Source: Clostridiales bacterium (GTDB lineage Bacteria; Bacillota; Clostridia; Christensenellales; Aristaeellaceae). Taken from it: a stretch of DNA of 64,000 bases. The stretch's first letter is position 1, and every line of letters starts with the position of its first letter. The notes under the pieces are model-generated. The model saw only the letters and a list, made by a program, of their open reading frames with translations, ran no database searches and was not told where the DNA came from. Where the stretch lies: contig SVHA01000003.1 in the NCBI GenBank assembly GCA_015056085.1, positions 124,001 to 188,000 on the forward strand, written 5' to 3'. Positions 23,675-36,613 of this stretch are shown piece by piece. A program made the position numbers and the translations under genes.

Positions 23675-23906
23675 AGAAAAAGCCTCCGCCCTTGCGCTTT
23701 GCAGGGACGAAGGCGTTGCTTCGCGGTACCACCCGGCTTAGGACGGCACAGCCGTCCTCTCTCATTGCGTCCTGTCACGGGGACGAACCGGCGGTGATTG
23801 GCCGCAGCTCCGGGCTGGGATGGGGAGAAAGCATCCGCTGCGCACCTTGCACTCTCCGTGCGCTCGCTGGAAGGGACGTATTTCCCCCGGGCCCTTCATG
23901 GCTGAT
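23675..23906 (-). promoter_or_regulatory. T-box leader of proS
   Basis: The T-box sequence GGGTGGTACCGCG is at 23734-23722 on the minus strand, followed by a GC-rich terminator (GCCTTCGTCCCTGC paired with GCAAGGGCGGAGGC) and TTTTTC. Stem I is shorter and more GC-rich than that of the ior leader; CCC (Pro) at about 23824-23822, before ATCCC...CGGAG, is a tentative specifier that fits the gene. Confidence 0.85.
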
Positions 23907-23912
23907 GGGAGC

Positions 23913-23941
23913 ATTATACACCACCATCGCCCGTTTTGCAA
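23913..23941 (-). promoter_or_regulatory. Promoter of the proS leader
   Basis: TTGCAA (23941-23936), 17 nt, TATAAT (23918-23913). Confidence 0.75.
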
Positions 23942-23957
23942 GATATTTCCCGCATTT

Positions 23958-25052
23958 TCAGTCCATCTCCACCACGCCGGGATAGCTGCTCATAACCTCC
24001 GACGCCTGATTGACAAAGGTGGTGGCCGTTTCCGGCGCCGGGCGGAAGGGCTCGCCCTCCACCAGGATGTTCACCTTCTCCACGCCGGGGAACTGGCTGG
24101 CGGTGAACACCACCGCCCTGACCGCCAGTTGGCCGCCGTCATCGTTTTCGGCAATGCCGGCGAATTCCCTGGTAAAATCAATGGTGGCCACGCCGTTTTT
24201 CACCGTCACGGAACGGATGCCGCACTTCTCCTGCACGGCCTGTTCCAGCCCGCTGTCCTTTTTCGGGCCCTTGACCAACTCCAGAATCGCCGTGGACAAA
24301 TCCGCCGGAGAGAACACCGTGCGGGTCACGGGCACCAGCATCCGGCCCGACGCCGAGGGGAAATACAACTGCATCTGATCGGCATAGACGCTGGACGTGA
24401 CGTCAGCGGATTCCACGTTGATGTTATCCATGGAAAACACCCCCGACACGTCCGTGCCATGGGTGAGCTGACTGCGCTTCTGCCCGTCAAAGAGGAAGGA
24501 GACCTGCTCCACCGTGTCAAAGCAGCACAGCGCCGCCGCCGTGCCGTGAACCATCAGCAGTTCCTCCTCGGCACTCATGCAGTTGAGGGCTTCCTTACTC
24601 AAATCCACCCGGGCCTTGCCGCCGGAAATGTCAATGTCAAAGCTGGTGCCTTCCGGCAGGATATTTTTCAGCCCCATCCGGGCGGCGGTCAGGTCGTTCT
24701 GGCTGGATTTGACCATCAGCGACAGCGTTGCCTTGGCGATACCGTCCTGCTGGGCCACCTGCTGGGTCACCGGCACCAGATAGCCGTCGCCGTCCTCATA
24801 CCAGCAGATGACGGACTGCATGGGCGTTTGGGCAGAGGCAGAGGCTGCCTGCGTGCCGTCTGCCGACGTTTGCACAGCAGGTTTGCTGCCCTCCACCCGG
24901 TATACGCTGTCCACTGTTTGATTGTCCTCGGCCCTCAGGGCCAGCATCACCACCAGACCTGCCGCCGACACAATCAGCAGCCTTTCCACGTTCACCCGCT
25001 TGATTCTTTTGAGCCTGTCAATCACCTTTTCCGTCACGCTTGGCATCTTCAC
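23958..25052 (-). CDS. Membrane-anchored protein with two GerMN domains
   Basis: A 364-residue protein: one N-terminal membrane segment (about 24-40), a linker rich in Ala, Ser and Gln, then two GerMN (sporulation/germination) repeats, about 85-200 and 225-345. Repeat marks are ATLSLMVKSSQN...ILPEGTSF with GKARVDLSKEAL, and AILELVKGPKK...SVTVKNGVATIDFTREF. GerM-like proteins function at the cell envelope during sporulation or germination in Bacillus and appear more widely. The GTG at 25052 is favoured by GAGGAGG 9 nt upstream; an ATG two codons later is the alternative. Confidence 0.85.
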   Translation of the reverse strand: MKMPSVTEKVIDRLKRIKRVNVERLLIVSAAGLVVMLALRAEDNQTVDSVYRVEGSKPAVQTSADGTQAASASAQTPMQSVICWYEDGDGYLVPVTQQVAQQDGIAKATLSLMVKSSQNDLTAARMGLKNILPEGTSFDIDISGGKARVDLSKEALNCMSAEEELLMVHGTAAALCCFDTVEQVSFLFDGQKRSQLTHGTDVSGVFSMDNINVESADVTSSVYADQMQLYFPSASGRMLVPVTRTVFSPADLSTAILELVKGPKKDSGLEQAVQEKCGIRSVTVKNGVATIDFTREFAGIAENDDGGQLAVRAVVFTASQFPGVEKVNILVEGEPFRPAPETATTFVNQASEVMSSYPGVVEMD

Positions 25053-25135
25053 CGCCGATTGCCTCCTCGCACATGGTTTGGTGCATGGTATGCCTTTTTT
25101 CCGCCGGATAGAACGCCCCGCCCGCCGCCCTTTCC

Positions 25136-25164
25136 TTGACAGAAAAATCGGTTGATGGTATGAT
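25136..25164 (+). promoter_or_regulatory. Promoter of the glycosylphosphotransferase gene
   Basis: TTGACA (25136-25141), 17 nt, TATGAT (25159-25164). Confidence 0.75.
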
Positions 25165-25220
25165 GTATGTGTCTGAAAACCACCAATGAGACCAAGAAAC
25201 ACAATGAACAAACGGAAGGG

Positions 25221-26645
25221 ATGGCGTACCAACAGATGAACCGATGGAAAAGCCGGCTGAAGCGGCATCGCAGCGCCATGCTCACCGGCCTGATGCAGAT
25301 TCTGCTCTTCCTGGGGCAGATGTATCTGTTTTTCGGGCTGATGTCCATCACCAACTGGCCCCTGCGCAACCTTTCCCGTACGCTGGGCACCACGCTGGTG
25401 ACCTATATCGCCATGTCCCTGGCCATGAATGCCGTCTACGGCGGCTTTGATGTGGGCAGGCGCAAGAACAAGCCTCTTATCTCCGCCCTGTGCCTCTCCA
25501 CCCTCGTCACCGATCTTGTCACCTATCTGCAATTGCAGATCATGAACGTCAACGAAAACAACAACGACACCCTGCGCCTGTTCGGCCCCGACTTTGTGTG
25601 GCTGCTGATTTCTCTGGCGGCCCAGGCAATCTTCATCATCCTGATGGTCAACTGGGCCAACGGCCTGTACTTCAAAATGAATCCGCCCCGCAAGGTGCTG
25701 ATGGTGCTGGGGGATGAAAGCCGCCGGGAGATCCTGCAGCACAAAATCGGCCGCTACAGCCAGCAGTGGAAGGTGGAAGACGCCATCTTGTGGCATGACA
25801 GCAATCTGCATCAGCGGGTGCGCCATGCACAGGTGGTCTTCCTGGACAGCGAAATCCCCAACCAGACCCGCTTCGAACTGCTCAAGTTCTGCTATGCCTG
25901 TCACCGGGACATCATCTGCAAAGCCAAACTGCAGGACATCATGCTGGCCAGTTCCCGTCAGGTGATCATCGACGATGCGCCGTGCCTGGAAATGGACTTC
26001 CGCAAAATGACGCTGTGGCAGCGCATCATCAAGCGCCTCACGGACATCGGCTCCTCTTTCCTGGCGCTTGTGGTGCTCAGCCCGCTGATGCTCCTCGTCG
26101 CCCTGGCCATCCATCTGGAGGACCGCGGGCCGGTGTTCTTCCGCCAGAAGCGCCTCACGGTGGGCGGACGCACCTTCACCATCCTCAAATTCCGCACCAT
26201 GAGCCAGCAGGCGTCTGCCTCCCGCACCCAGGTATCCGCCACCGCCGGGGATCAGCGCATCACCAAGGTGGGCGCATGGCTGCGGCGTTTCCGGCTGGAT
26301 GAACTGCCCCAACTGTGGAACATTCTGGTGGGCGATATGACCCTGGTGGGCCCTCGCCCGGAAATGCTGGAAAACATCGAGAAATACAAGGCGGAACTGC
26401 CCGCTTTTGCCTATCGTGAAAAGATGAAGGCCGGCCTGACGGGCTATGCCCAGATCGAAGGCCGCTACAACACCACCCCGGAAGACAAACTGATGATGGA
26501 CCTGATGTACATCGAGAACTTCTCCCTGTGGGAGGATGTGAAGCTCATCATGCGTACGATGACGGTCTTCTTCAAAAAGGACTCCACCCAGGGCTTCTCT
26601 GTACCCCGGGAAGAGGATAAACCCGCAAAGGATCTCAGCGCCTGA
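25221..26645 (+). CDS. Polyprenyl glycosylphosphotransferase (exopolysaccharide initiation)
   Basis: A protein of about 474 residues with four N-terminal membrane helices, a cytosolic middle domain (about 155-270) and a C-terminal bacterial sugar transferase domain: a membrane helix (FLALVVLSPLMLLVALAI) then GPVFFRQKRL, ILKFRTM, RRFRLDELPQLWNIL and GDMTLVGPRPE. It transfers a sugar phosphate to undecaprenyl phosphate, the first step of exopolysaccharide assembly. The exact start is uncertain: 25221 abuts a GGAAGGG and 25236 lies 15 nt from it; an upstream ATG at 25167 coincides with the transcription start. A nucleotidyltransferase and galE follow. Confidence 0.9.
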   Translation: MAYQQMNRWKSRLKRHRSAMLTGLMQILLFLGQMYLFFGLMSITNWPLRNLSRTLGTTLVTYIAMSLAMNAVYGGFDVGRRKNKPLISALCLSTLVTDLVTYLQLQIMNVNENNNDTLRLFGPDFVWLLISLAAQAIFIILMVNWANGLYFKMNPPRKVLMVLGDESRREILQHKIGRYSQQWKVEDAILWHDSNLHQRVRHAQVVFLDSEIPNQTRFELLKFCYACHRDIICKAKLQDIMLASSRQVIIDDAPCLEMDFRKMTLWQRIIKRLTDIGSSFLALVVLSPLMLLVALAIHLEDRGPVFFRQKRLTVGGRTFTILKFRTMSQQASASRTQVSATAGDQRITKVGAWLRRFRLDELPQLWNILVGDMTLVGPRPEMLENIEKYKAELPAFAYREKMKAGLTGYAQIEGRYNTTPEDKLMMDLMYIENFSLWEDVKLIMRTMTVFFKKDSTQGFSVPREEDKPAKDLSA

Positions 26646-26673
26646 TCAATCGACATACAAGGAGGCGTTTTAC

Positions 26674-27579
26674 ATGAACACTACGCTGGTCATTATGGCA
26701 GCAGGTCTCGGCTCCCGCTACGGCGGCAACAAGCAGGTCGACCGCATCGGCCCCCACGGAGAAATCCTGCTGGAGTATTCGATTTTTGACGCCCTCGCCG
26801 CCGGCTTTGACAAGGTGGTATTCATCATCAAGCGGGGCATGGAGGAAAATGAAGTCATCAAAAGCGTGATGGCCCGCCTGGCCGCCCAGGGCGTTGAGGG
26901 CGTGTGCGTGGTGCAGGAGTATGCCAACCTGCCCGGCGGATTCACCCCGCCTGCTGAGCGCACCAAGCCCTACGGCACCGTCCATGCGGTGTACAGCGCC
27001 AAGGACGCCATCCATGAGCCATTCGCCGTCATCAATGCGGATGACTACTATGGCAGGGACGCCTTTGAAGCCATGGCCCGGCAGCTCAAATCCATGGGCC
27101 CCAATGACAAGCACGCCGCCATGGTGGGCTATCAGCTGCGCAACACCGTGTCGGAAAACGGTCATGTCACCAGAGGCGTATGCCAGACGGAAAACGGCCG
27201 TCTGGTCAAGGTGGTGGAAACCTACAAAATCCAGCCCTGCCCCGACGGCACCATCCGCGATCTGGCCGATGGCGGCGAAGGCACCGTCCTCCCGCCGGAT
27301 GTGCCTGTGTCTATGAATTTCTGGGGTTTCACCCCCTGGTTCTTCGCCGTGGCAGAAAGCCACCTCACCGCTTTCCTGGAAGGCTCCGGCGACCCCATGA
27401 CCAAGGAATACGCTCTGCCCACGCTGGTGGACCAATTGATGCACGAGGAAAATCTCCCCGTGGATGTGCTGACCACCCCGGCTGTCTGGTTCGGTGTGAC
27501 CTATCAGCAGGATAAGCCCTTCGTGGCGGAAGAACTCAAAAAGCTCCACGACAGCGGCTTTTATCCCCCGCAATTGTAA
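26674..27579 (+). CDS. Sugar-phosphate nucleotidyltransferase
   Basis: A 301-residue nucleotidyltransferase of the NTP_transferase fold, with MAAGLGSRYGGNKQVDRIGPHG at the N-terminus (the first part is the nucleotide-binding loop), FAVINADDYYGRDAF as the metal-binding region and SMNFWGFTPWFF. It probably makes an NDP-sugar from a sugar 1-phosphate; the precise sugar is not readable. AAGGAGG precedes the ATG by 8 nt. It follows the glycosylphosphotransferase gene by 28 nt, and a terminator separates it from galE. Confidence 0.87.
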   Translation: MNTTLVIMAAGLGSRYGGNKQVDRIGPHGEILLEYSIFDALAAGFDKVVFIIKRGMEENEVIKSVMARLAAQGVEGVCVVQEYANLPGGFTPPAERTKPYGTVHAVYSAKDAIHEPFAVINADDYYGRDAFEAMARQLKSMGPNDKHAAMVGYQLRNTVSENGHVTRGVCQTENGRLVKVVETYKIQPCPDGTIRDLADGGEGTVLPPDVPVSMNFWGFTPWFFAVAESHLTAFLEGSGDPMTKEYALPTLVDQLMHEENLPVDVLTTPAVWFGVTYQQDKPFVAEELKKLHDSGFYPPQL

Positions 27580-27610
27580 CATAACGGCTTTTTTGCCCGC
27601 ATCTCTTATG

Positions 27611-27640
27611 AAATCCCCTGATTTTTACAGGGGATTTTCT
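27611..27640 (+). terminator. Intrinsic terminator
   Basis: AAATCCCCTG/CAGGGGATTT stem, 7-nt loop, TTCTTTT. Confidence 0.8.
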
Positions 27641-27649
27641 TTTGGGAAC

Positions 27650-27678
27650 TTGAAAAGTCCGGCGTTTTCCTGTACAAT
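27650..27678 (+). promoter_or_regulatory. galE promoter
   Basis: TTGAAA (27650-27655), 17 nt, TACAAT (27673-27678). Confidence 0.65.
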
Positions 27679-27740
27679 GGTAAGCGGAATACTTCCCCCT
27701 TCAAACGATGCAAATCATAAGCAACAGGAGGAACCGTCCC

Positions 27741-28757
27741 ATGAACATTCTGCTCACCGGCGGCGCCGGCTTCATTGCCAGCCACACCTGCGTTGAACTG
27801 CTTGAGGCAGGCCATCAGGTGGTCGTGGTGGACAACTATGTGAATAGCCAGCCTGAATCCCTGCGCCGGGTGGAAGAAATCACCGGCTGCAAAATCAAGT
27901 CCTATGAAGCCGACGTGTGCGACAAGGATGCCATGAACCGCATCTTTGACGAAAACACCTTTGACGCCGTGATTCACTTCGCCGGCCTGAAGGCCGTGGG
28001 CGAGTCCGTATCCATCCCCCTCAGGTATTATCGCAACAACCTGGATTCCACCCTGACCCTATGCGAAGTCATGGCGGAACATGGCTGCAAGCGGCTGGTG
28101 TTTTCCTCCTCTGCCACGGTGTACGGCGAGCCGGAAGAAGTGCCCCTGCGGGAGGATATGTTCTGCAAGGGCTGCACCAACCCCTATGGCTGGACCAAGT
28201 ACATGATCGAGAAGATCCTGCAGGATCTGGTGGTGGCAGACCCCGAGTGGAGCGTGGTGCTGCTGCGGTACTTCAACCCCATCGGCGCCCACGAATCCGG
28301 CCGCATCGGTGAGGACCCCAGCGGCATCCCCAACAACCTCATGCCCTATATCACCGAAGTGGCCGTGGGCAAGCTGGATCACCTCACCGTCTACGGCGAC
28401 GATTATGACACCCATGACGGCACCGGCGTGCGGGATTACATCCATGTGGTAGACCTGGCCAAGGGCCATGTGGCCGCCTGCAATTATGCCGCCAAAACCA
28501 CCGGCTGCGAAATTATCAACCTGGGCACCGGCACCGGCTATTCCGTGCTGGACATCGTCCACGCCTTTGTGCGGGTCAACCATGTCAACGTGCCCTATGT
28601 GGTGGGCCCCCGCCGCCCCGGCGATGTGGACGCCTGCTTTGCCGACCCCGCAAAGGCGCAGAAGCTCCTTGGCTGGCGCGCCGAAAAGACGCTGGAGGAT
28701 ATGTGCCGAGATTCCTGGCGCTGGCAGTCCTCCAACCCCAACGGATACGAAAAATAA
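27741..28757 (+). CDS. galE: UDP-glucose 4-epimerase
   Basis: A 338-residue extended short-chain dehydrogenase. It shows the NAD-binding TGGAGFIASHTCVELL, FAGLKAVGESV, the SSSATVYG serine/threonine segment, the catalytic YGWTKYMIE (Y-x3-K) and RYFNPIGAHESG. It interconverts UDP-glucose and UDP-galactose in the cytosol, feeding polysaccharide synthesis with the two preceding genes. AGGAGG lies 9 nt before the ATG at 27741. Confidence 0.96.
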   Translation: MNILLTGGAGFIASHTCVELLEAGHQVVVVDNYVNSQPESLRRVEEITGCKIKSYEADVCDKDAMNRIFDENTFDAVIHFAGLKAVGESVSIPLRYYRNNLDSTLTLCEVMAEHGCKRLVFSSSATVYGEPEEVPLREDMFCKGCTNPYGWTKYMIEKILQDLVVADPEWSVVLLRYFNPIGAHESGRIGEDPSGIPNNLMPYITEVAVGKLDHLTVYGDDYDTHDGTGVRDYIHVVDLAKGHVAACNYAAKTTGCEIINLGTGTGYSVLDIVHAFVRVNHVNVPYVVGPRRPGDVDACFADPAKAQKLLGWRAEKTLEDMCRDSWRWQSSNPNGYEK

Positions 28758-28790
28758 AGTCCCGCCTTTTCAGCCTTTTCAGGAATGAAA

Positions 28791-28856
28791 GCGCGCACTG
28801 ACAGCCCGCCGATGGCTCAATCGGCATTATGCGCGGAGGCTCACGGGCTTCCGCGC
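28791..28856 (+). promoter_or_regulatory. Two hairpins sharing one arm upstream of the tubulin-like gene
   Basis: Structure 1: CGCGCA (28792-28797) pairs with TGCGCG (28830-28835), enclosing CCGAT/ATCGG. Structure 2: GCGCGGAGGC (28831-28840) pairs with GCTTCCGCGC (28847-28856), with a 6-nt loop. The two use the same GCGCG bases and exclude each other, as in an attenuator, but a proper T-run is missing. It may instead be only a galE terminator. Confidence 0.4.
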
Positions 28857-28918
28857 CTTTCCTTTATGCACGATATGATATTTGATGTAACGCCCCATCA
28901 GAAACGGAGGACGAAGAC

Positions 28919-30817
28919 ATGAAACGCTGCGTATTGCTCTTTGGCGGCTGCGGCGGCCGCATCGGGGAGGCCCTGGCGTATGCCGCTGCGGCCGGCGTGA
29001 TGGAAACGCCCTCCATGCAGGTGCTTTTGATGGACCCCGACCAGCAGGACGCCCATATTCAAAAGAGCCGGGCGTTGATGCAGGATTATACCCGGGTGCG
29101 CCGCCTGTTCACCCAGCCAGAGGATGAATTCTTTCTGGACCTGCAATGCGACCTGTGGCCGGAACAATCCCCCGCCGACGGCCTTGCTACCCTCTGCGGC
29201 GATCAGGACTGCGATCAGCTGCTGATGAAGGCCTTCTTCTCCAAGGAAGCCGCCCGGCGGCCCCTTTCCAGCGGCTTTGGCGGCAACCGCTTCCTGGCTG
29301 CCACCGCCTTTGAACACCTGTTGACCCCCGACGCCCTTGCGAAGGACAACGCCCTGACCCGCCTTCTTGCGGACACCGGGGACGAGGATGTGCAGATCGT
29401 GCTGGCGGGCTCCCTGTGCGGCGGCACGGGCAGTGCGGGTATCCCGGCGCTGGCCTCCTGGCTGCGCAGGGAACTGGGCGACCGTGCCCATCTGTCCGCT
29501 GTGCTGCTTCTGCCCTACGGCGCCTCAGACCGCAGCGTGGACGCCAAAACCGCCCTGCAGGCCTGCGGCGCGGAGGCTTACAATATGCCCGCCGTGCTGA
29601 TCGGCCTGCCGGAGGACGCCCGGGTGCGGGATCTGCCCGATGAAGCCCGGCTGCCGGAATGGCTGGCCGTCCATGCCATTGACTGGCTGATGCGCCACGA
29701 CGCCTCCGACCACGCCGCTTATACCTATCAGGCCAAGTCCGGTACCCTATCGTGGGAGAATTTCGGCAAATCCGCTGATTTGTACCGTTCCGGCTATGTG
29801 CGGCTGATGAAAACCGCCGCCCTGTTCCGCCTGGTGTTCACCCCCATGCTGAACCAGTGCCTTTCCCGCCCCCAGACCCTCAAAGATCGCCTCACGCCCT
29901 GGTTCAACGCCTGCTGCCGGCCCATCGCCCGCATGGAGGCGTCTGAAAAGGCCATCCTGCAGGAGGACCTGGCCGCCCTCAATCGCCTGATGAAAGGCGC
30001 CTGGTCGTGGCTGGAGGAAATTGCCGCCACCCTGCCCCAGGAAATGCGCTACGCTGACGCCGTTCTGGCCGCCCGAGCCGAAGCCCTCAAAAACTATCAG
30101 GAAATTGTGGAACTGACGGGGCCCCTCACCGTGCTGGATCGGGAAGCCCGGGAGCAGCCGGATGTGCAGGGCATTTCCCGCGCCGGAAGCCTGGAAGAAG
30201 AGGCGGAACTGGAAGCCGCCCGCCATCACCGGCAGATGCATGACCGCCTGCAGGAGCTGCTGGCCCAGCAACCCCGGCTCAACCGCCGCATGGGCGGCAC
30301 CTCCGTCATGCGGATGCTCTACGACACCCTCAGCGATTGCTCCAGGGAAGCGGAGCACGTGCGCTCCCAGGCGCAGGAAGCCCGCCGCCGCATTGATGAA
30401 GCCGAGTCCTTCGCCGCACCGTCGGAGCAGTATCGCATCGTGGCGGCCCGCACCCGCCTTGAACGCATGGAGCGCCATCTGTCCATGCTGGAAGCCCGGG
30501 AAGCCGCCGTGCGCCGGGATGTGGAAGCCGCTGAAAAGAGCGGCCTGCGCTGGGAGCCGCCGGAGATCATCGGCGAAGGCGAACAAGTGCAGTATGGACT
30601 GTTCTCCCCGGTGCTGATGCGCAAAATGGGCCGGATGAACCTCAAGGAAGCCGAGGAGATCTTCACCTCTCTGGCCATCCTCCCCTGGAAGGATGAGATG
30701 ACGGTGAAGCGTGTGCTCAGCGATCTGGGCAAGGTGAAAAACAGCCGGGAGAAGCATCCCCTTGCGTGCCTTTTCACCCAGACCATGGCTTGCGTATTGG
30801 AGGAAAAGACGACATGA
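28919..30817 (+). CDS. Tubulin/FtsZ-like nucleotide-binding protein with a C-terminal coiled coil
   Basis: A 632-residue protein. Its N-terminal half resembles tubulin-like NTPases: a Gly-rich loop FGGCGGRIGEAL (8-19), MDPDQQDAHIQK after the second strand, GFGGNRFLA (119-127) and the signature-like GGTGSAG (168-174, compare GGGTGSG) preceded by a hydrophobic strand. The second half is helical, with an Arg/Glu-rich coiled coil about 470-545. No signal peptide or membrane segment. It overlaps the next gene by ATGA, so the two are translationally coupled. The SD GGAGG lies 9 nt before the ATG. Bacterial tubulin-like (Tubulin_2) proteins are known but mostly uncharacterised; GTP binding and polymerisation are inferred only. 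Confidence 0.72.
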   Translation: MKRCVLLFGGCGGRIGEALAYAAAAGVMETPSMQVLLMDPDQQDAHIQKSRALMQDYTRVRRLFTQPEDEFFLDLQCDLWPEQSPADGLATLCGDQDCDQLLMKAFFSKEAARRPLSSGFGGNRFLAATAFEHLLTPDALAKDNALTRLLADTGDEDVQIVLAGSLCGGTGSAGIPALASWLRRELGDRAHLSAVLLLPYGASDRSVDAKTALQACGAEAYNMPAVLIGLPEDARVRDLPDEARLPEWLAVHAIDWLMRHDASDHAAYTYQAKSGTLSWENFGKSADLYRSGYVRLMKTAALFRLVFTPMLNQCLSRPQTLKDRLTPWFNACCRPIARMEASEKAILQEDLAALNRLMKGAWSWLEEIAATLPQEMRYADAVLAARAEALKNYQEIVELTGPLTVLDREAREQPDVQGISRAGSLEEEAELEAARHHRQMHDRLQELLAQQPRLNRRMGGTSVMRMLYDTLSDCSREAEHVRSQAQEARRRIDEAESFAAPSEQYRIVAARTRLERMERHLSMLEAREAAVRRDVEAAEKSGLRWEPPEIIGEGEQVQYGLFSPVLMRKMGRMNLKEAEEIFTSLAILPWKDEMTVKRVLSDLGKVKNSREKHPLACLFTQTMACVLEEKTT

Positions 30818-33800
30818 AAGGCTTGATTTTCCTGCCGGGCCGCAGCGGAAGCGAGCGGCTGAGCATCGGCACGGGTCTGTGCCGCATGGATGACAGCGCC
30901 TCCCACGCCCTCAAGGACATTGCCGCCCGCATGGCCGTGAGGGAAGAAGCCGTCACCGAAGAAGAAATCACCTGCTGGCGGGGCGCACTGTCTCTGGCGC
31001 TGCTGGCAGACACCTGGGCGGATGGAAACGCCCAGCTGGAAGTCATCACCATCGACAGGGACACTTCCCCCTTCGCTGCCCGCCTGATGCAGGCCCGCCC
31101 CGCTCAGGACAGGGACAAGCCCATTCATCTGGTGCTTTTGAAGGATGATACCAGCCGCTGCCTGCTGGGCGTGACGGATGACCAGATTGGTCTCAAACCC
31201 GCCGCTTCCCCCGATGACCTGACGGACCTGCTGCCGCCCCGCATGGGCTGGTATGACAAGGGCCATTTTGCAGACCCCGTGCCCCTGCTCAACGAGCGGG
31301 ACAGGGCGCTGCTGATCCGCCGGCTGCACCTGATGAATCTGCCCGACCCCCGGGTGAAGGACTTCGTGTCCGACCTGGCCCAGCAGAGCCTGAAGGAAAG
31401 CCAGCCCATCACCCGCAGCGACGACACCGCCCTGCGCTGTCTGGCGGTGATGCTCAAGGCTACCATCGGCTTTTCAGGGGAAGAGAATTTCCCCCTTGAA
31501 GAGCGGGACGAGCCCTATCGTGCCATGGCGGAAAACCCCTTCCTGTCCTGCTTTGTGAAGGATTTCACCGTGCCGGATGAAGGCTTTGCGCCGCAAAAGA
31601 CCTACCTGTGGAACGGCGTGCCCTTTGCCCGCTCCTCCACTGCCGCAGGGCTCACCGTGACCGGCCATCCCCGGTGCTATCAGGCGCTGCTGGAGGCGGA
31701 AAAGGAAGTGCACCTGCTGGAGAATCACTCCTCCCGCTGGTGCCAGGACGCCGCCCGGAGAATCGAAAAGCACCTTCAGCGCATGGAGGGCCGCAAGGGC
31801 TTCCTGCCAGGCGCCCGTGCCGTGGCAGAAGGCGCCGTTGACGGCCTTCGCAGCCGTGCCCGGGAGGATCGCCTGCCGGTGATCACCTTCCCCCTCACCC
31901 CCGGTCCCGCTTCTCGACTGATTTTCCGGGAGAGCCTCGGCTTCTCCCTCACAGAGCCCTTCACGCCCCGGCTGACCCGCCTCCTGGGCGGCGCAGACGC
32001 CCTGGGCGACGCCATGCTGCAGGATGCCTGCCGTCAGGGCGAGGATGCATTCCTGCCGCCCCTGTCTGACGAACTGTCCGGGTGGATTCACCGCCAGAAC
32101 GGGCTGTTCAGCGCCTCGGAAATGTACTTTGTACCCGGCGAGGACGGCGAGATCACCTTCACGCTGCTGCTCCACGGTCAGAAGGACATGGCCCTGGCCC
32201 GCACCTATCCGGCGGAAGACATCAGGGAAATGGCTTCCCTGCCCGCAGTGGCGGTGTGGCCCTGCCTCCCCCTGAAGGATGCTTCCTGGCGGGCGTATTT
32301 CGTGTACCTTCGGGGCGAAAACATCGCCCTGCACCTTCCCGGCGGGGAAAATACCCCTGCTCTGTGCCCTGCCTCCGGCGGCTTTTCCGCCCTGCAGACG
32401 GAAGAATACCCCGCCTGCATCACCCTGTGGCAGGAGGAGGAATGTCTGGGCGCCATCCCCAATGTGCTGCCGGCCGCTGATCCCCTGCCCTCCGGCGACG
32501 CCATTGCCGCCATCGACTTTGGCGCCTGTGGCATTTCTGTGATGCTGCGTCAGGGCGAGATCACCTCCGCCCCGGAAGACGTCAACCTGCTTCGGCTGCT
32601 GCTGTGCAAGGATGCGCCCGACCTGGCGGCGGAATTCACCACCGGCGATTTTTCCGGCGTATGGCCCACCTGTGCCCTGCTCACCGGCGAGGATTGCCGT
32701 CCCCTGCTGGACGGGCGGATGTACGCCCCCGAAACCCTGCCGGAAGCCGCTTCCGTGCCGTATCAGCTGCTCTCCGGGAGCCTGAAGTGGCGCTCAGACG
32801 ACGCTGCCCTCAGGGGCCGGGAAGCGCTGATGCATCAGGTGATGCTCCACACGGCCTGCGTGCTGCGCCTGCGGGGCGCTGCCTCTGTGACCTGGCGGAT
32901 TTCCCTGCCGGACAGGGCGGGCAAAGCCCAGCAGAGCACCTGGCTGTCCCTGATGGATCGTCTGGCCCATCAGGTTGCCAAAGAAACGGGTCTGCCCCTG
33001 ACCCGGAGCATCCCCGCCGTCACCTGGGCGGCGGAAGGCGACGCCCTCCATGCCTGCCTGCGCCTGAGCCACCCCGTGGGGGCCATGGCTTCTCTGGACG
33101 TAGGCGGCGGCAGCATGGACATCCGCCTCTGGCTGGACGGTTCCGCCCAGCCCCAGCGCCGGGCCCTTCTCTCCGGCGGACTGCAAACGCTGCTGCTTTC
33201 TGCCCTGTCCCGCCACCCGGACTGGCTGACGGACGCCTGCCCTTCTGGCGACGCCGCCAGGGACGCTCAACTGGTGACCCATCAGGCGGAAATCGCCGCC
33301 ACCGGCCTTCCGCAGATGGAACGGGCCCTGTTCCTGACGGACCTGTTCATGGCCCGCCACGGAGACGCCCTGTCGCTGGAACTCAACAGGCAGTACGCCC
33401 TGGGGCGCATCCTGCCCCTGCAGGCGCTTTTGATGGAAACCTTCTGTGCCCTGATGTGCGTGACGGGCATGGGCCTGGCCCAACTTAGCGAAACGCCGGA
33501 TACGGCCCATCAGCTGCCGGAACATCTTCCCCTGCACCTCAGCGGACGGGGCGCCATGCTTCTTGGTGCCATGCCGCCCCAGCTGCAGCAGATGACGCTG
33601 CAGTTCCTGTACATGATGCTTCCCCCGGAGTATCCCACCAGGCGGGTCTCCCTGCGTTTGTCCGGTGACCCCAAGGGCGACATCGCCCGGGGCCTGTGCC
33701 GCCTGGATACCCTGCCTGACCTGCCCCGGGATCTCCCCGCCTGCGAAAAAATCACCACGGCAGAGTCCTTCTCCTTCCTGGTGATGACGTTCCTGAAGGT

Positions 33801-33975
33801 CTTCCGCATCCATGGCGGCGCCGCTGCCGAGATGCTCCATCCGGGGCTGATGGATATGGCGGGCCAGTTCACCCCCTCTGGCGAGGAAAAGGTGCGCCGC
33901 ATCTGCGCCAAACACTATCATCAGGGCGAGGACATCCCATCTGCCCTGATGTGGGTGCTTTCCGACCTGCGGTGA
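30814..33975 (+). CDS. Very large protein with actin/Hsp70-like ATPase motifs
   Basis: A 1053-residue protein I cannot place in a named family. The first 555 residues have no motif I recognise. The C-terminal part has the ASKHA motif set in order: phosphate-1-like IAAIDFGACGISVMLRQG (564-581), phosphate-2-like LDVGGGSMDIRLW (761-773) and adenosine-like LSGRGAMLLGA (909-919), which together indicate an actin/Hsp70-type fold. The 190-residue distance between the first two is usual. No membrane segment. It begins in the ATGA overlap of the tubulin-like gene with GGAGG upstream, so the products are probably made in fixed ratio and work together. Nothing nearby marks a mobile element. Confidence 0.72.
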   Translation: MKGLIFLPGRSGSERLSIGTGLCRMDDSASHALKDIAARMAVREEAVTEEEITCWRGALSLALLADTWADGNAQLEVITIDRDTSPFAARLMQARPAQDRDKPIHLVLLKDDTSRCLLGVTDDQIGLKPAASPDDLTDLLPPRMGWYDKGHFADPVPLLNERDRALLIRRLHLMNLPDPRVKDFVSDLAQQSLKESQPITRSDDTALRCLAVMLKATIGFSGEENFPLEERDEPYRAMAENPFLSCFVKDFTVPDEGFAPQKTYLWNGVPFARSSTAAGLTVTGHPRCYQALLEAEKEVHLLENHSSRWCQDAARRIEKHLQRMEGRKGFLPGARAVAEGAVDGLRSRAREDRLPVITFPLTPGPASRLIFRESLGFSLTEPFTPRLTRLLGGADALGDAMLQDACRQGEDAFLPPLSDELSGWIHRQNGLFSASEMYFVPGEDGEITFTLLLHGQKDMALARTYPAEDIREMASLPAVAVWPCLPLKDASWRAYFVYLRGENIALHLPGGENTPALCPASGGFSALQTEEYPACITLWQEEECLGAIPNVLPAADPLPSGDAIAAIDFGACGISVMLRQGEITSAPEDVNLLRLLLCKDAPDLAAEFTTGDFSGVWPTCALLTGEDCRPLLDGRMYAPETLPEAASVPYQLLSGSLKWRSDDAALRGREALMHQVMLHTACVLRLRGAASVTWRISLPDRAGKAQQSTWLSLMDRLAHQVAKETGLPLTRSIPAVTWAAEGDALHACLRLSHPVGAMASLDVGGGSMDIRLWLDGSAQPQRRALLSGGLQTLLLSALSRHPDWLTDACPSGDAARDAQLVTHQAEIAATGLPQMERALFLTDLFMARHGDALSLELNRQYALGRILPLQALLMETFCALMCVTGMGLAQLSETPDTAHQLPEHLPLHLSGRGAMLLGAMPPQLQQMTLQFLYMMLPPEYPTRRVSLRLSGDPKGDIARGLCRLDTLPDLPRDLPACEKITTAESFSFLVMTFLKVFRIHGGAAAEMLHPGLMDMAGQFTPSGEEKVRRICAKHYHQGEDIPSALMWVLSDLR

Positions 33976-34011
33976 TACCGCAGATTCAACCCAGCCATTT
34001 CTTTCCAGGGA

Positions 34012-34040
34012 TTGAAATGCAGCGCCGATGATGCTATAAT
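34012..34040 (+). promoter_or_regulatory. Promoter of the YitT-family gene
   Basis: TTGAAA (34012-34017), 17 nt, TATAAT (34035-34040). Confidence 0.75.
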
Positions 34041-34092
34041 CAGGTGGTTGTTCATCCCCATTTTCACTGCTCCCGAAAGGACGCAAGCCGCC

Positions 34093-34950
34093 ATGAAAGT
34101 TACCAGAGAAACCGTGAAGGAATGGGTCCTTGTGACCTTTGCCACCCTGCTGATTGCTGCAGGCACATACTTCTTCAAGTTCCCCAACCATTTCTCCCCC
34201 GGCGGCGTCACCGGCCTGTCGGTGATACTGGGGCACTACTTCCCTCAGATCACGCCGGGTGATTTCGTGCTGGCCATCAATATGCTGCTTCTGCTGGTGG
34301 GCTTTGCAGTGTTCGGCAAGGGTTTCGGCGCCAAGACCGCCTATGCAAGCCTGGTCATGTCCGGCGCCATCTGGGTGCTGGAGCGTGCCATCCCCCTGAC
34401 GGCCCCCCTGACCACCCAGCCTTTCATGGAACTGATTTTCGCCGTGTCCCTGCCGGCAGTGGGCTCTGCGATTCTGTTTAATTACAATGCCTCTTCCGGC
34501 GGCACCGATGTGGTGGCGATGCTCCTCAAGCGCTTCACTTCCCTGAACATCGGCAATGCGCTGATCTGCACCGACATCCTCATCGCCCTGATGGCCTGCG
34601 TGGCCTTCGGCATGGAGGCGGGCCTGTTCTCCGTGCTGGGTCTTGTGATCAAATCCCTGCTGGTGGACATGGTGATGGAAAACATCAACACCCACAAGTA
34701 CTTCCACATCATCACCACCCATCCCCGGGAAATCGAAAAGTACATCACCGAAGTACTGCACCGCGGCGCCACGGAACTAAACGGCGAAGGCGCCTACACC
34801 CACGAGGGCCGCACCGTGCTGCTGACGGTGATGAACCGCCATCAGGCACTGCTTTTGCGCCGCTATGTGCGTCAGGTGGACCCCAAAGCCTTCGTGCTGA
34901 TTATGAACACCGGCGAAATCGTGGGCAAGGGCTTCCGGGATACCCTGTGA
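34093..34950 (+). CDS. YitT-family membrane protein (DUF161/DUF2179)
   Basis: A 285-residue integral membrane protein: five or six hydrophobic segments over residues 10-200 with the family segments NHFSPGGVTGLSVIL and NYNASSGGTDVVAM, then a cytosolic DUF2179 domain (about 205-285) with HRGATELNGEGAYTHEGRTVL. Function of the family is not established. The ATG at 34093 follows GAAAGGA; the promoter lies within an upstream extension of the frame. A YdcZ-like transporter gene follows after 27 nt. Confidence 0.9.
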   Translation: MKVTRETVKEWVLVTFATLLIAAGTYFFKFPNHFSPGGVTGLSVILGHYFPQITPGDFVLAINMLLLLVGFAVFGKGFGAKTAYASLVMSGAIWVLERAIPLTAPLTTQPFMELIFAVSLPAVGSAILFNYNASSGGTDVVAMLLKRFTSLNIGNALICTDILIALMACVAFGMEAGLFSVLGLVIKSLLVDMVMENINTHKYFHIITTHPREIEKYITEVLHRGATELNGEGAYTHEGRTVLLTVMNRHQALLLRRYVRQVDPKAFVLIMNTGEIVGKGFRDTL

Positions 34951-34977
34951 TGACCTCCGTCTGAAAGGATTAACTTC

Positions 34978-35865
34978 ATGTATATCGTGCTTGCGGCAAT
35001 CTACGGTTGCCTGCTCTCCCTGATGAACACCTTCAACCCCCAGTTGTCGCTGTATTACGGCGACTGGGCGTCTTCAGTGATGATTCACGCCATCGGCCTT
35101 GCGGCATTGCTGCCCCTGGCCTTCACCTGGGGCAAGCCTACCGGCTCTGCCAGGTGGTATCAGTATCTGGGCGGCCTGATCGGCATCCTGACGGTGGTGT
35201 TCATCAACATCGGCGTCAACGGCCTGGGCGTCACCTCCAACCTGACGCTGATGCTCCTTGGCCAGGTGGTTTCCTCCTCGGTGGTAGACCACTTCGGCAT
35301 TCTGGGCATGAAGAAGGTGCCCATCAACCGGGGCAAGGTGCTGGCCATCGCCGTGATGACCATCGCCTGCGTGGTGATGGTGGTCTTCAGCGGCGAAAGC
35401 CTGCAAAACATCTCCTGGGCGGCAGTGATCGCCTCCTTTGCCAGCGGCATGACTATGGTGGGCTCCCGCCTGGCCAATGCCGGCCTGGCCCAGCGCCGGG
35501 GCGCAGGATTCTCCACCATCATGAATTACGTCACCGGCCTGGCGGGCAGCCTTGTCATCTTTGCGCTGATGGGCTTCCCGGTGGCTACCCCCGACCCCGG
35601 CGCCGTCACCGGCGTGTGGCGCATCCTGATGTACACCGGCGGCATTCTGGGCGCTGCGGGCATTTTCCTCAGCAACGTGATTGCCCCCCGGATGCCGGCG
35701 CTGCAGATGACGTTGCTGGTGTTTGTGGGTCAGGTGTTCTCCGGCATGGTGCTGGACGCCCTGCTGGGCAAGTTCTCCCTGGGCACCCTTGTGGGCGGCC
35801 TGATCATCGTGGCGGGTATGCTCATCAATATGCGGGCAGACCGCCAGCGCATCAGGGAGGCATAA
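34978..35865 (+). CDS. DMT-type transporter, YdcZ family (two repeats)
   Basis: A 295-residue membrane protein with about ten hydrophobic segments arranged as two DUF606/YdcZ units, each with a hydrophobic run near a conserved Asn-rich start (NTFNPQLSLYYG, then LANAGLAQRRG). Fused two-unit YdcZ proteins are common in Firmicutes. Substrate unknown. GAAAGGA precedes the ATG; the stop is 1 nt before the next start. Confidence 0.82.
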   Translation: MYIVLAAIYGCLLSLMNTFNPQLSLYYGDWASSVMIHAIGLAALLPLAFTWGKPTGSARWYQYLGGLIGILTVVFINIGVNGLGVTSNLTLMLLGQVVSSSVVDHFGILGMKKVPINRGKVLAIAVMTIACVVMVVFSGESLQNISWAAVIASFASGMTMVGSRLANAGLAQRRGAGFSTIMNYVTGLAGSLVIFALMGFPVATPDPGAVTGVWRILMYTGGILGAAGIFLSNVIAPRMPALQMTLLVFVGQVFSGMVLDALLGKFSLGTLVGGLIIVAGMLINMRADRQRIREA

Positions 35866-35866
35866 C

Positions 35867-36613
35867 ATGGAACAGATCACCAGTCTGAAAAACAGCCGCA
35901 TCGTTACGTGGAAATCCCTCAAGGACCGCAAGGGCCGCCGGGAAACGGGCCTGTTTCTGGTGGAAGGCCGCAAGATGGTGGAAGAAGCCCTCGCTTCCCA
36001 CTTTCCGGTGAGCGCCATCCTTGTGGATCAGGACCGGGTGAGCGAATGGTCGCTCCCCAGTGATATTCCTGCCTATTCCATGCCCGCCCACGTCCTTGGA
36101 GCCGTGTGCGACACTAAAACGCCCCAGGGCATCGCCGCCGTGGTGGGCATGACGGAGATGCGCCAGCCCGGGCATCGCCTGGTGGTGATGGACGGCGTGC
36201 AGGACCCCGGCAATGTGGGCACCATCCTCCGCACCGCTGACGCCGCCGGGTTTGACGGCGTGCTGCTTTCCCGCCAGTGTGCCGATGTGTTCAGCCCCAA
36301 GGTGCTCCGTGCCACCATGGGCAGCATCTTCCGCATGGGCGTGCAGGTGTGTGACGACCTGCCCCACACCCTCACTTGCCTGAAGGAACAGGGTTTCAGC
36401 GTGATTTCCTCCCAGCTGGACGGCGATCCCTTCTATGAGCGGGCCCCTGTGGGCGAGAAGTTCTGTCTGGTCATCGGCAGCGAAGGCAACGGCGTTTCCC
36501 CCCAGGTGCAGGCCGTGGCCACCCACCGGGTCAAGCTGCCCATGCGGGGCGGCGCTGAAAGCCTCAATGCCGCCGTGGCTGCTGGCATCATGATGTATGA
36601 GTTAATGCGCTAA
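35867..36613 (+). CDS. SpoU/TrmH-family RNA methyltransferase
   Basis: A 248-residue SPOUT methyltransferase: an N-terminal substrate-binding domain (ITSLKNSRIVTWKSLKDRKGR, FLVEGRKMVEEAL) and a knotted SAM-binding domain with motif 1 DPGNVGTILRTADAAG, motif 2 LVIGSEGNGVS and motif 3 LPMRGGAESLNAAVAAGIM. It 2'-O-methylates rRNA or tRNA; the target is not clear. Its ATG is 2 nt after the ydcZ-like stop, and GGGAGG lies within the end of that gene. Confidence 0.94.
   Translation: MEQITSLKNSRIVTWKSLKDRKGRRETGLFLVEGRKMVEEALASHFPVSAILVDQDRVSEWSLPSDIPAYSMPAHVLGAVCDTKTPQGIAAVVGMTEMRQPGHRLVVMDGVQDPGNVGTILRTADAAGFDGVLLSRQCADVFSPKVLRATMGSIFRMGVQVCDDLPHTLTCLKEQGFSVISSQLDGDPFYERAPVGEKFCLVIGSEGNGVSPQVQAVATHRVKLPMRGGAESLNAAVAAGIMMYELMR

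Follow-up and report, generated by a model that had tools for sequence, protein, structure and literature searches.

In a 64,000-nucleotide stretch of a Clostridiales genome (family Aristaeellaceae; GenBank assembly GCA_015056085.1, contig SVHA01000003.1, positions 124,001 to 188,000; hereafter the window), a gene for a tubulin/FtsZ-like protein, TUB, overlaps a gene for a protein of the actin/Hsp70 (ASKHA) fold, ASK. We tentatively propose that TUB and ASK make up the cytoplasmic half of an FtsZ-like-1 (FtsZl1)/vWA membrane machine and that the window carries a derived form of it, probably a two-protein nucleotide-binding envelope scaffold. In relatives the two genes are tightly linked, sometimes fused, and have parallel trees; with genes for a vWA-type and a small membrane protein they form a four-gene operon. 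The window belongs to a branch where these two partners are absent from their usual place. The pair lies as follows (window positions):

28919..30817, + strand: TUB, tubulin/FtsZ-like, 632 aa; GTPase core at residues 1-288, the remainder mostly helical in the model
30814..30817, + strand: ATGA overlap (4 bases) of TUB stop and ASK start
30814..33975, + strand: ASK, 1053 aa from the ATG at 30814; ASKHA domain at about residues 560-960, N-terminal half (residues 1 to about 555) without an assigned fold

A GGAGG-like ribosome site precedes both starts. With a simple codon-score gene caller, TUB scored 182.8 and ASK 276.5, above the antisense open reading frames (ORFs) overlapping them, and GC content in the pair is 0.80 at the third codon position versus 0.45-0.48 at the second. 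The caller has its errors: it missed TUB and ASK of locus L058 (corrected by hand) and made false antisense calls, such as window 23958-26312 and cluster c17. The gap of -4 between the genes is also present in 9 relatives, and the ATGA overlap suggests that their translation is coupled. TUB carries a T1-like loop, FGGCGG, and a T4 loop, CGGTGSAG, at residues 167-174, where a GGGTG[ST]G-like signature is present. ASK carries IDFGACGIS, LDVGGGSMDI and LSGRGA in ASKHA order, with phosphate-1 at D568-G570, phosphate-2 at D762-G766 and the adenosine motif at G911-G913. Residue shuffles never reproduced GGTG[STA][AG]G in TUB (0/20,000) or the ordered three-motif pattern in ASK (0/20,000); the phosphate-2 motif alone appeared 7 times. 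A preliminary description of this DNA had reported the 632-aa and 1053-aa frames at 28919..33975, their overlap and these motifs. Coordinates, coding scores and shuffles confirmed all of these observations, and the interpretation placed on them is partly supported, as detailed below.

The structure model of TUB contains a tubulin-type nucleotide-binding core and matches tubulin/FtsZ structures, FtsZ best; much of the protein beyond about residue 290 is poorly modelled. The ASK model matches ASKHA structures, so that both folds named in the preliminary description are borne out. A profile of ASK relatives matched FtsA best (3.4e-6) and then MreB (9.8e-6), the FtsA models covering just the phosphate-2 region. 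Against the PDB, the ASK profile (A1) gave 7 matches, all ASKHA but weak (best E 0.021). CetZ was the only match (E 0.019) in a further profile search bearing on the folds, and single-sequence PDB searches with the window TUB and ASK returned nothing relevant. In Pfam, the window TUB reached 26.6 bits for Tubulin_2, just below the curated cut-off of 27. Among relatives, L068, L069 and L070 exceed 27 bits, L117 reaches 19.0 bits and L067 has no match; 10 of the 25 members of the TUB profile (A2) match Tubulin_2 at E 0.01 or better. We consider the identity of both folds, and their pairing, very likely. SrfB, another candidate identity, was rejected: it is absent from the Pfam matches and the literature gave nothing useful.

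The two genes are found together. Among 100 genomes of the family, TUB was detected in 25 with a single query and in 27 with a profile, and the ASK profile matched 28, including all 27 of these; G173 was missed by the TUB profile, and its TUB half was read from a fused ORF. ASK lies directly downstream of TUB in 23 of the 25 non-fused genomes, the exceptions being G195 (one called gene in between) and G214 (separate contigs). The called gene of G195 (L046 8242-9078) is on the opposite strand, and we take its product to resemble RNase H. Genome G149, counted among the 23, has beside an intact TUB a long ASK frame with three in-frame TAG codons (L053 9442-12627, G149:C27); some other L053 frames also extend if TAG is read through, and decay or TAG recoding would both fit. 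Genus g138 has a fused form, a single ORF of 1727, 1745 or 1774 aa that contains both proteins in 3/3 sampled genomes:

L075, 6873-12056: fused TUB-ASK frame, GTP loop lost
L076, 8297-13534: fused TUB-ASK frame, GTP loop lost
L077, 6111-11435: fused TUB-ASK frame, GTP loop lost

Beyond the family the pair is seldom seen: full-length ASK was found in 2 further genomes of 391 in a class sample (G080, G369) and, at E 1e-8, in 1 further genome of 398 in a phylum sample (G729). The class sample gave ASK matches in 28/391 genomes, 25 of which were not counted, being short matches near phosphate-2 in ORFs of 319-516 aa, about the size of FtsA or MreB; matches in G037 and G065 were dropped as short frames with stops. 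TUB lies upstream of ASK in G080, G369 and G729, in two pieces in G080. When 72,556 plasmids were searched by tblastn, the ASK query and the L070 TUB query retrieved the same 5 cyanobacterial plasmids. The preliminary description expected a genuine pair to recur in other genomes, and it does, in family genomes, the class sample and cyanobacterial plasmids. On the five plasmids (NC_014503.1, NZ_CP014003.1, NZ_CP016489.1, NZ_CP016476.1 and AP017960.1) the TUB and ASK relatives stand side by side, mostly annotated as hypothetical or unknown. A phage or viral origin of the pair was considered and rejected: no viral contig matched in searches for the pair, and the L049 ASK, the one query used there, had 0 matches in 50,697 phage records.

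The trees of TUB and ASK also agree. Patristic distances correlate over 34 loci (r=0.856), a value reached in 0/2000 label permutations (maximum 0.26), and 25 of 31 splits are in common; common host descent alone could supply part of this agreement. The TUB tree, like the motif count below, excludes G080 with its divided TUB; the ASK tree excludes L068, whose ASK is split in two, and an ASK row is lacking for L053 and L060.

Outside the window's branch, the pair is usually preceded by vWA-type and membrane genes. This arrangement is found in family loci of group B (L047, L049-L052, L054, L055) and group C (L056-L061; L062 begins inside TUB), and in the distant loci L067 (Bryobacterales), L068 and L070 (cyanobacteria), L069 (an Oscillospiraceae metagenome-assembled genome), G369 (L113), G729 (L120), G080 and plasmids L117-L119, the vWA-type gene of L118 being on the opposite strand. 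For the plasmids, the operon was inspected in three out of five. The four-gene operon occurs in three phyla. Its first protein has a signal-like start, with a cysteine at the signal end in 15/15 aligned proteins and a lipobox pattern in 5/11; the small protein that accompanies it before TUB has 3-4 predicted membrane helices in 12 of 13 cases examined (one helix in L069). Downstream of ASK lies a protein with one predicted helix in 5/7 loci examined and two in 2/7.

We call the first protein vWA-like from its motifs and position. A D-x-[ST]-x-S motif resembling a metal ion-dependent adhesion site (MIDAS) is present in 8/9 distant versions (the exception is L117 as annotated). The G080 protein does not match this pattern; hhalign shows the group B and C proteins to be homologous (probability 93.7, E 2e-7), and parts of the motif are missing from them. 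None had a Pfam match or a useful PDB match. Leave-one-group-out profiles recovered 5/6 group B, 5/5 group C and 2/9 distant proteins. In G080, TUB is immediately preceded by genes for a 478-aa lipoprotein-like protein and a 153-aa membrane protein, and a profile built without G080 recovered the 478-aa protein among a small set (E 3.5e-5). For the small membrane proteins of groups B and C, sequence homology could not be shown. Two of the distant loci have further genes after the operon. In L113 (11513-13973) these are MotA/ExbB-like (E 8.1e-5) and OmpA-like (E 1.0e-5), both just under the Pfam cut-off and reminiscent of stator-type proton channels. In L067 (13750-16464, just after the operon region) a protein with FHA matches in three stretches is joined to an ABC transporter.

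The window's branch comprises 14 loci (the window, L039-L046, L048, L053 and L075-L077). No vWA-type or membrane gene was seen beside the pair in any of them, the upstream part of L077 having been searched for sugar genes only, and this absence of an adjacent partner is secure. That the branch lost these genes is read from trees without a root, where the canonical forms cluster with those of other phyla. A vWA-type profile run over the 14 branch genomes and G080 hit 4 places in 3 genomes, all within positions 3-66 of 574 (the signal end), and missed the true partner in G080. In the window, the place of the vWA gene is occupied by galE, in a block of sugar genes placed by tblastn:

25167..26645, + strand: exopolysaccharide polyprenyl glycosylphosphotransferase (EPS_sugtrans, E 7e-93)
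26674..27579, + strand: sugar nucleotidyltransferase-like gene
27741..28757, + strand: galE, UDP-glucose 4-epimerase, directly upstream of TUB (GalE, E 2.3e-133)

Upstream of TUB on the same strand, branch loci have the sugar transferase in 10/14 cases, the nucleotidyltransferase in 9/14 and galE in 11/14, versus 0/25 other loci (L041 ends in galE; L066 and L051 are the same contig). GalE is directly upstream of TUB in all 11; other genes hold this place in L045 and L053, and the stretches examined of L045, L053 and L077 showed no sugar genes. For comparison, 30 family genomes lacking the pair were searched for galE, which 27 of them carry (E 1e-60 or better). Among 29 galE loci the nucleotidyltransferase is directly upstream in 1 and a partial match lies about 1 kb off in 2, and TUB or ASK was found in 0 of the flanks (at most 1.5 kb). 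Such a distribution would suit a regulator devoted to the lipid-linked sugar genes upstream of it, functionally unrelated to the ancestral four-gene machine: the sugar genes precede the pair in this branch and in none of the other loci, and the nucleotidyltransferase-galE order is seen in 1/29 loci without it. The same block, however, also keeps a SpoU methylase gene (7/14) and a YitT gene (4/14), and three branch loci showed no sugar genes, so that we hold such a regulator to be distinctly improbable.

The branch also differs in its nucleotide-binding motifs. The T4 loop GGTG is intact in 22/22 loci in which a vWA-type gene is present and TUB is readable versus 2/14 branch loci (the window and L039), and DxGGG is kept in 18/20 ASKs with a vWA-type gene versus 1/13 in the branch (the window); L053, L060 and L068 lack an ASK row for this count, and L062 and L065 were not counted. 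The window is the sole branch member with all five tested motifs. The branch pair could then be a nucleotide-independent scaffold, a pseudo-GTPase tubulin fold in a fixed two-domain unit, with the window protein less eroded and on the same path. The motif counts agree with this, as do the three fusions, which all lack the GTP loop and whose form suggests a fixed unit. Against it, the window keeps every tested motif and its own chemistry may be alive. We regard this scaffold as unlikely.

The ftsA and ftsZ genes are the classic neighbouring actin-like and tubulin-like pair, in the order ftsA before ftsZ, and their products are the one well-studied bacterial actin-tubulin pair that we know of. 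The window pair likewise sets an actin-fold gene and a tubulin-fold GTPase gene side by side. It differs in that TUB precedes ASK, in that both proteins are much larger, and in that the genome has FtsZ and FtsA-family genes elsewhere: at C25:30231-30713 and 30923-31408, FtsZ (E 9.6e-54) stands beside an FtsA-family gene (E 5.0e-10). FtsZ itself was rejected as the identity of TUB on this ground, and an operon of the two folds, called rare in the preliminary description, thus already has another instance in the same genome. FtsA-FtsZ is for us a working analogy, not a family assignment. Could the pair be an accessory FtsA-FtsZ for cell division? FtsA is the best match of the ASK-relative profile and FtsZ that of the TUB model. 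This role nevertheless seems very improbable: FtsZ and an FtsA-family gene already stand side by side on another contig, C25, most sampled relatives in the class lack TUB-ASK, and the full operon includes a secreted vWA-like protein, which we know of in no division operon.

Nor is the pair foreign to every named system, as was first thought: TUB misses by a small margin the cut-off of Tubulin_2, the Pfam name of the FtsZl1 family (PMC9871819), and Synechocystis has a Tubulin_2/FtsA/DivIC trio, sll0445-sll0447. A 2023 survey set the Tubulin_2 group aside (PMC9871819). FtsZl1 was described by Makarova and Koonin in 2010 with vWA, GTPase, kinase and OmpA-like neighbours, and membrane remodelling was proposed; the available Findings text names no ASKHA partner (PMC2875224). 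TUB shares with FtsZl1 a diverged tubulin core and a long helical C-terminal part, and its relatives have vWA-like and membrane neighbours, one of them also an OmpA-like gene; the difference is that the window pair has no adjoining vWA gene. In Synechocystis, the products of the trio (Sll0445, Tubulin_2; Sll0446, FtsA domain; Sll0447, DivIC domain) are recovered in the same fractions as pilus assembly and photosystem proteins, and interrupting any one of the genes impairs phototaxis (PMC9880817). The genes sll0443-sll0449 are listed as one unit with a putative CRP site (PMC2633013). Ratios of 3.8-5.8, taken as lexA mutant over wild type, were given for sll0443-sll0445 (PMC4759255), and Sll0445 and Sll0446 are described as deregulated in a comFB mutant (PMC12313861). 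The Picosynechococcus and Gloeothece plasmid operons have the same order of Pfam names as sll0445-sll0447, all matches being below the Pfam cut-offs: Tubulin_2 in Picosynechococcus, FtsA in both and DivIC in Gloeothece (E 0.004), whose record says tubulin-like. Unlike the Synechocystis unit, the window pair has neither membrane genes adjacent upstream nor a DivIC-like gene, and it lies within a block of sugar genes.

In the GTPase-centred systems of Kaur et al. (2020), tubulin-vWA and HSP70 are non-overlapping themes (PMC7159879). The likeness to these GAP1-N2 systems is that tubulin and membrane vWA share one theme and HSP70 has another; the difference is that they are centred on GTPase/GAP1, whereas here tubulin-fold and actin-fold partners come together. 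A module for conflict or defence, such as these authors group with GTPases, vWA, tubulin and HSP70, would agree with the described tubulin plus vWA theme, the patchy presence of the pair (2/390 other class-sample genomes) and the plasmid location of some copies. A Pfam scan of 9 window frames at 23820-36610 (frame 23820-25139 is probably no gene) gave, however, no GTPase or GAP1 match; the viral and phage searches (ASK only for phage) were negative; the branch is largely in one chromosomal setting; and the Synechocystis mutants show motility phenotypes. Together with the separation of the tubulin and HSP70 themes, these points make such a module improbable. No paper joining these families to a cross-phylum vWA-membrane-TUB-ASK operon or a partner-less branch was found among the matches listed, in a partial coverage of the literature that is no proof of novelty.

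The machine that we tentatively favour would work as follows. In the full form, the outer vWA-like protein, with its signal sequence and conserved cysteine at the signal end, would signal through the 3-4-helix membrane protein to TUB and ASK. TUB, as a putative GTP-binding tubulin relative, would assemble at the inner membrane face. ASK, a putative ATP-binding FtsA-like partner, would bind TUB and control or tether its assembly, in the way that FtsA serves FtsZ. The resulting structure might then organise an envelope apparatus; the cyanobacterial evidence points to type IV pili. Behind its lipid-linked-sugar genes, the window pair is probably still a nucleotide-binding scaffold, serving surface-polysaccharide or other envelope work. 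Contact between the proteins, their assembly and membrane tethering, their connection with surface sugars, and the function itself are what we infer. Of the roles listed in the preliminary description, an envelope factor or scaffold fits best, and nothing found points to DNA positioning.

Several points weigh against this proposal. The ASK model is of low confidence (predicted local distance difference test score, pLDDT, 47.4; predicted template modelling score, pTM, 0.40), the TUB profile A2 retrieved no tubulin from the PDB, and the FtsZ C-terminal domain is not recognised in TUB, where no Pfam tubulin/FtsZ match extends past the core. Makarova and Koonin regarded a novel mode of FtsZl1 filament formation as possible and no filaments at all as less likely (PMC2875224). 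The likeness to sll0443-sll0449 is that of a Tubulin_2 gene followed by an FtsA-domain gene, matched by Pfam names and gene order, not by sequence, and the same Synechocystis mutants have altered photosystem II electron transport kinetics (PMC9880817). The absence of vWA genes elsewhere in the branch genomes is not secure, because the profile missed the real partner in G080. The GTP loop is lost in 12/14 branch loci, so GTP-driven assembly cannot be general there. Finally, part of the branch gene order may be inherited position, since SpoU (7/14) and YitT (4/14) genes also follow the pair.

A bolder version, which we find doubtful, is that an obligate co-assembling tubulin-fold/actin-fold pair, sometimes fused, couples surface sensing, across phyla, with envelope machinery, and that one Clostridia branch shed the membrane half, mostly lost the GTPase site and was redirected to the synthesis of surface sugars. 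If true, this would provide a natural gradation from live GTPase to inactive scaffold. The pair is another actin-tubulin pair besides FtsA-FtsZ, with an outer vWA-like and a membrane protein in its full form, a motility phenotype reported for its likely counterpart in a tractable cyanobacterium, natural fusions and a GTPase site decaying in one branch. It makes co-assembly of the two folds outside division testable and offers a lead to the function of the FtsZl1 family.

Minor features of the window are an alternative GTG start of ASK in the ORF list, 16 codons before the ATG at 30814, and a YitT-family gene that flanks the pair on the side opposite galE.

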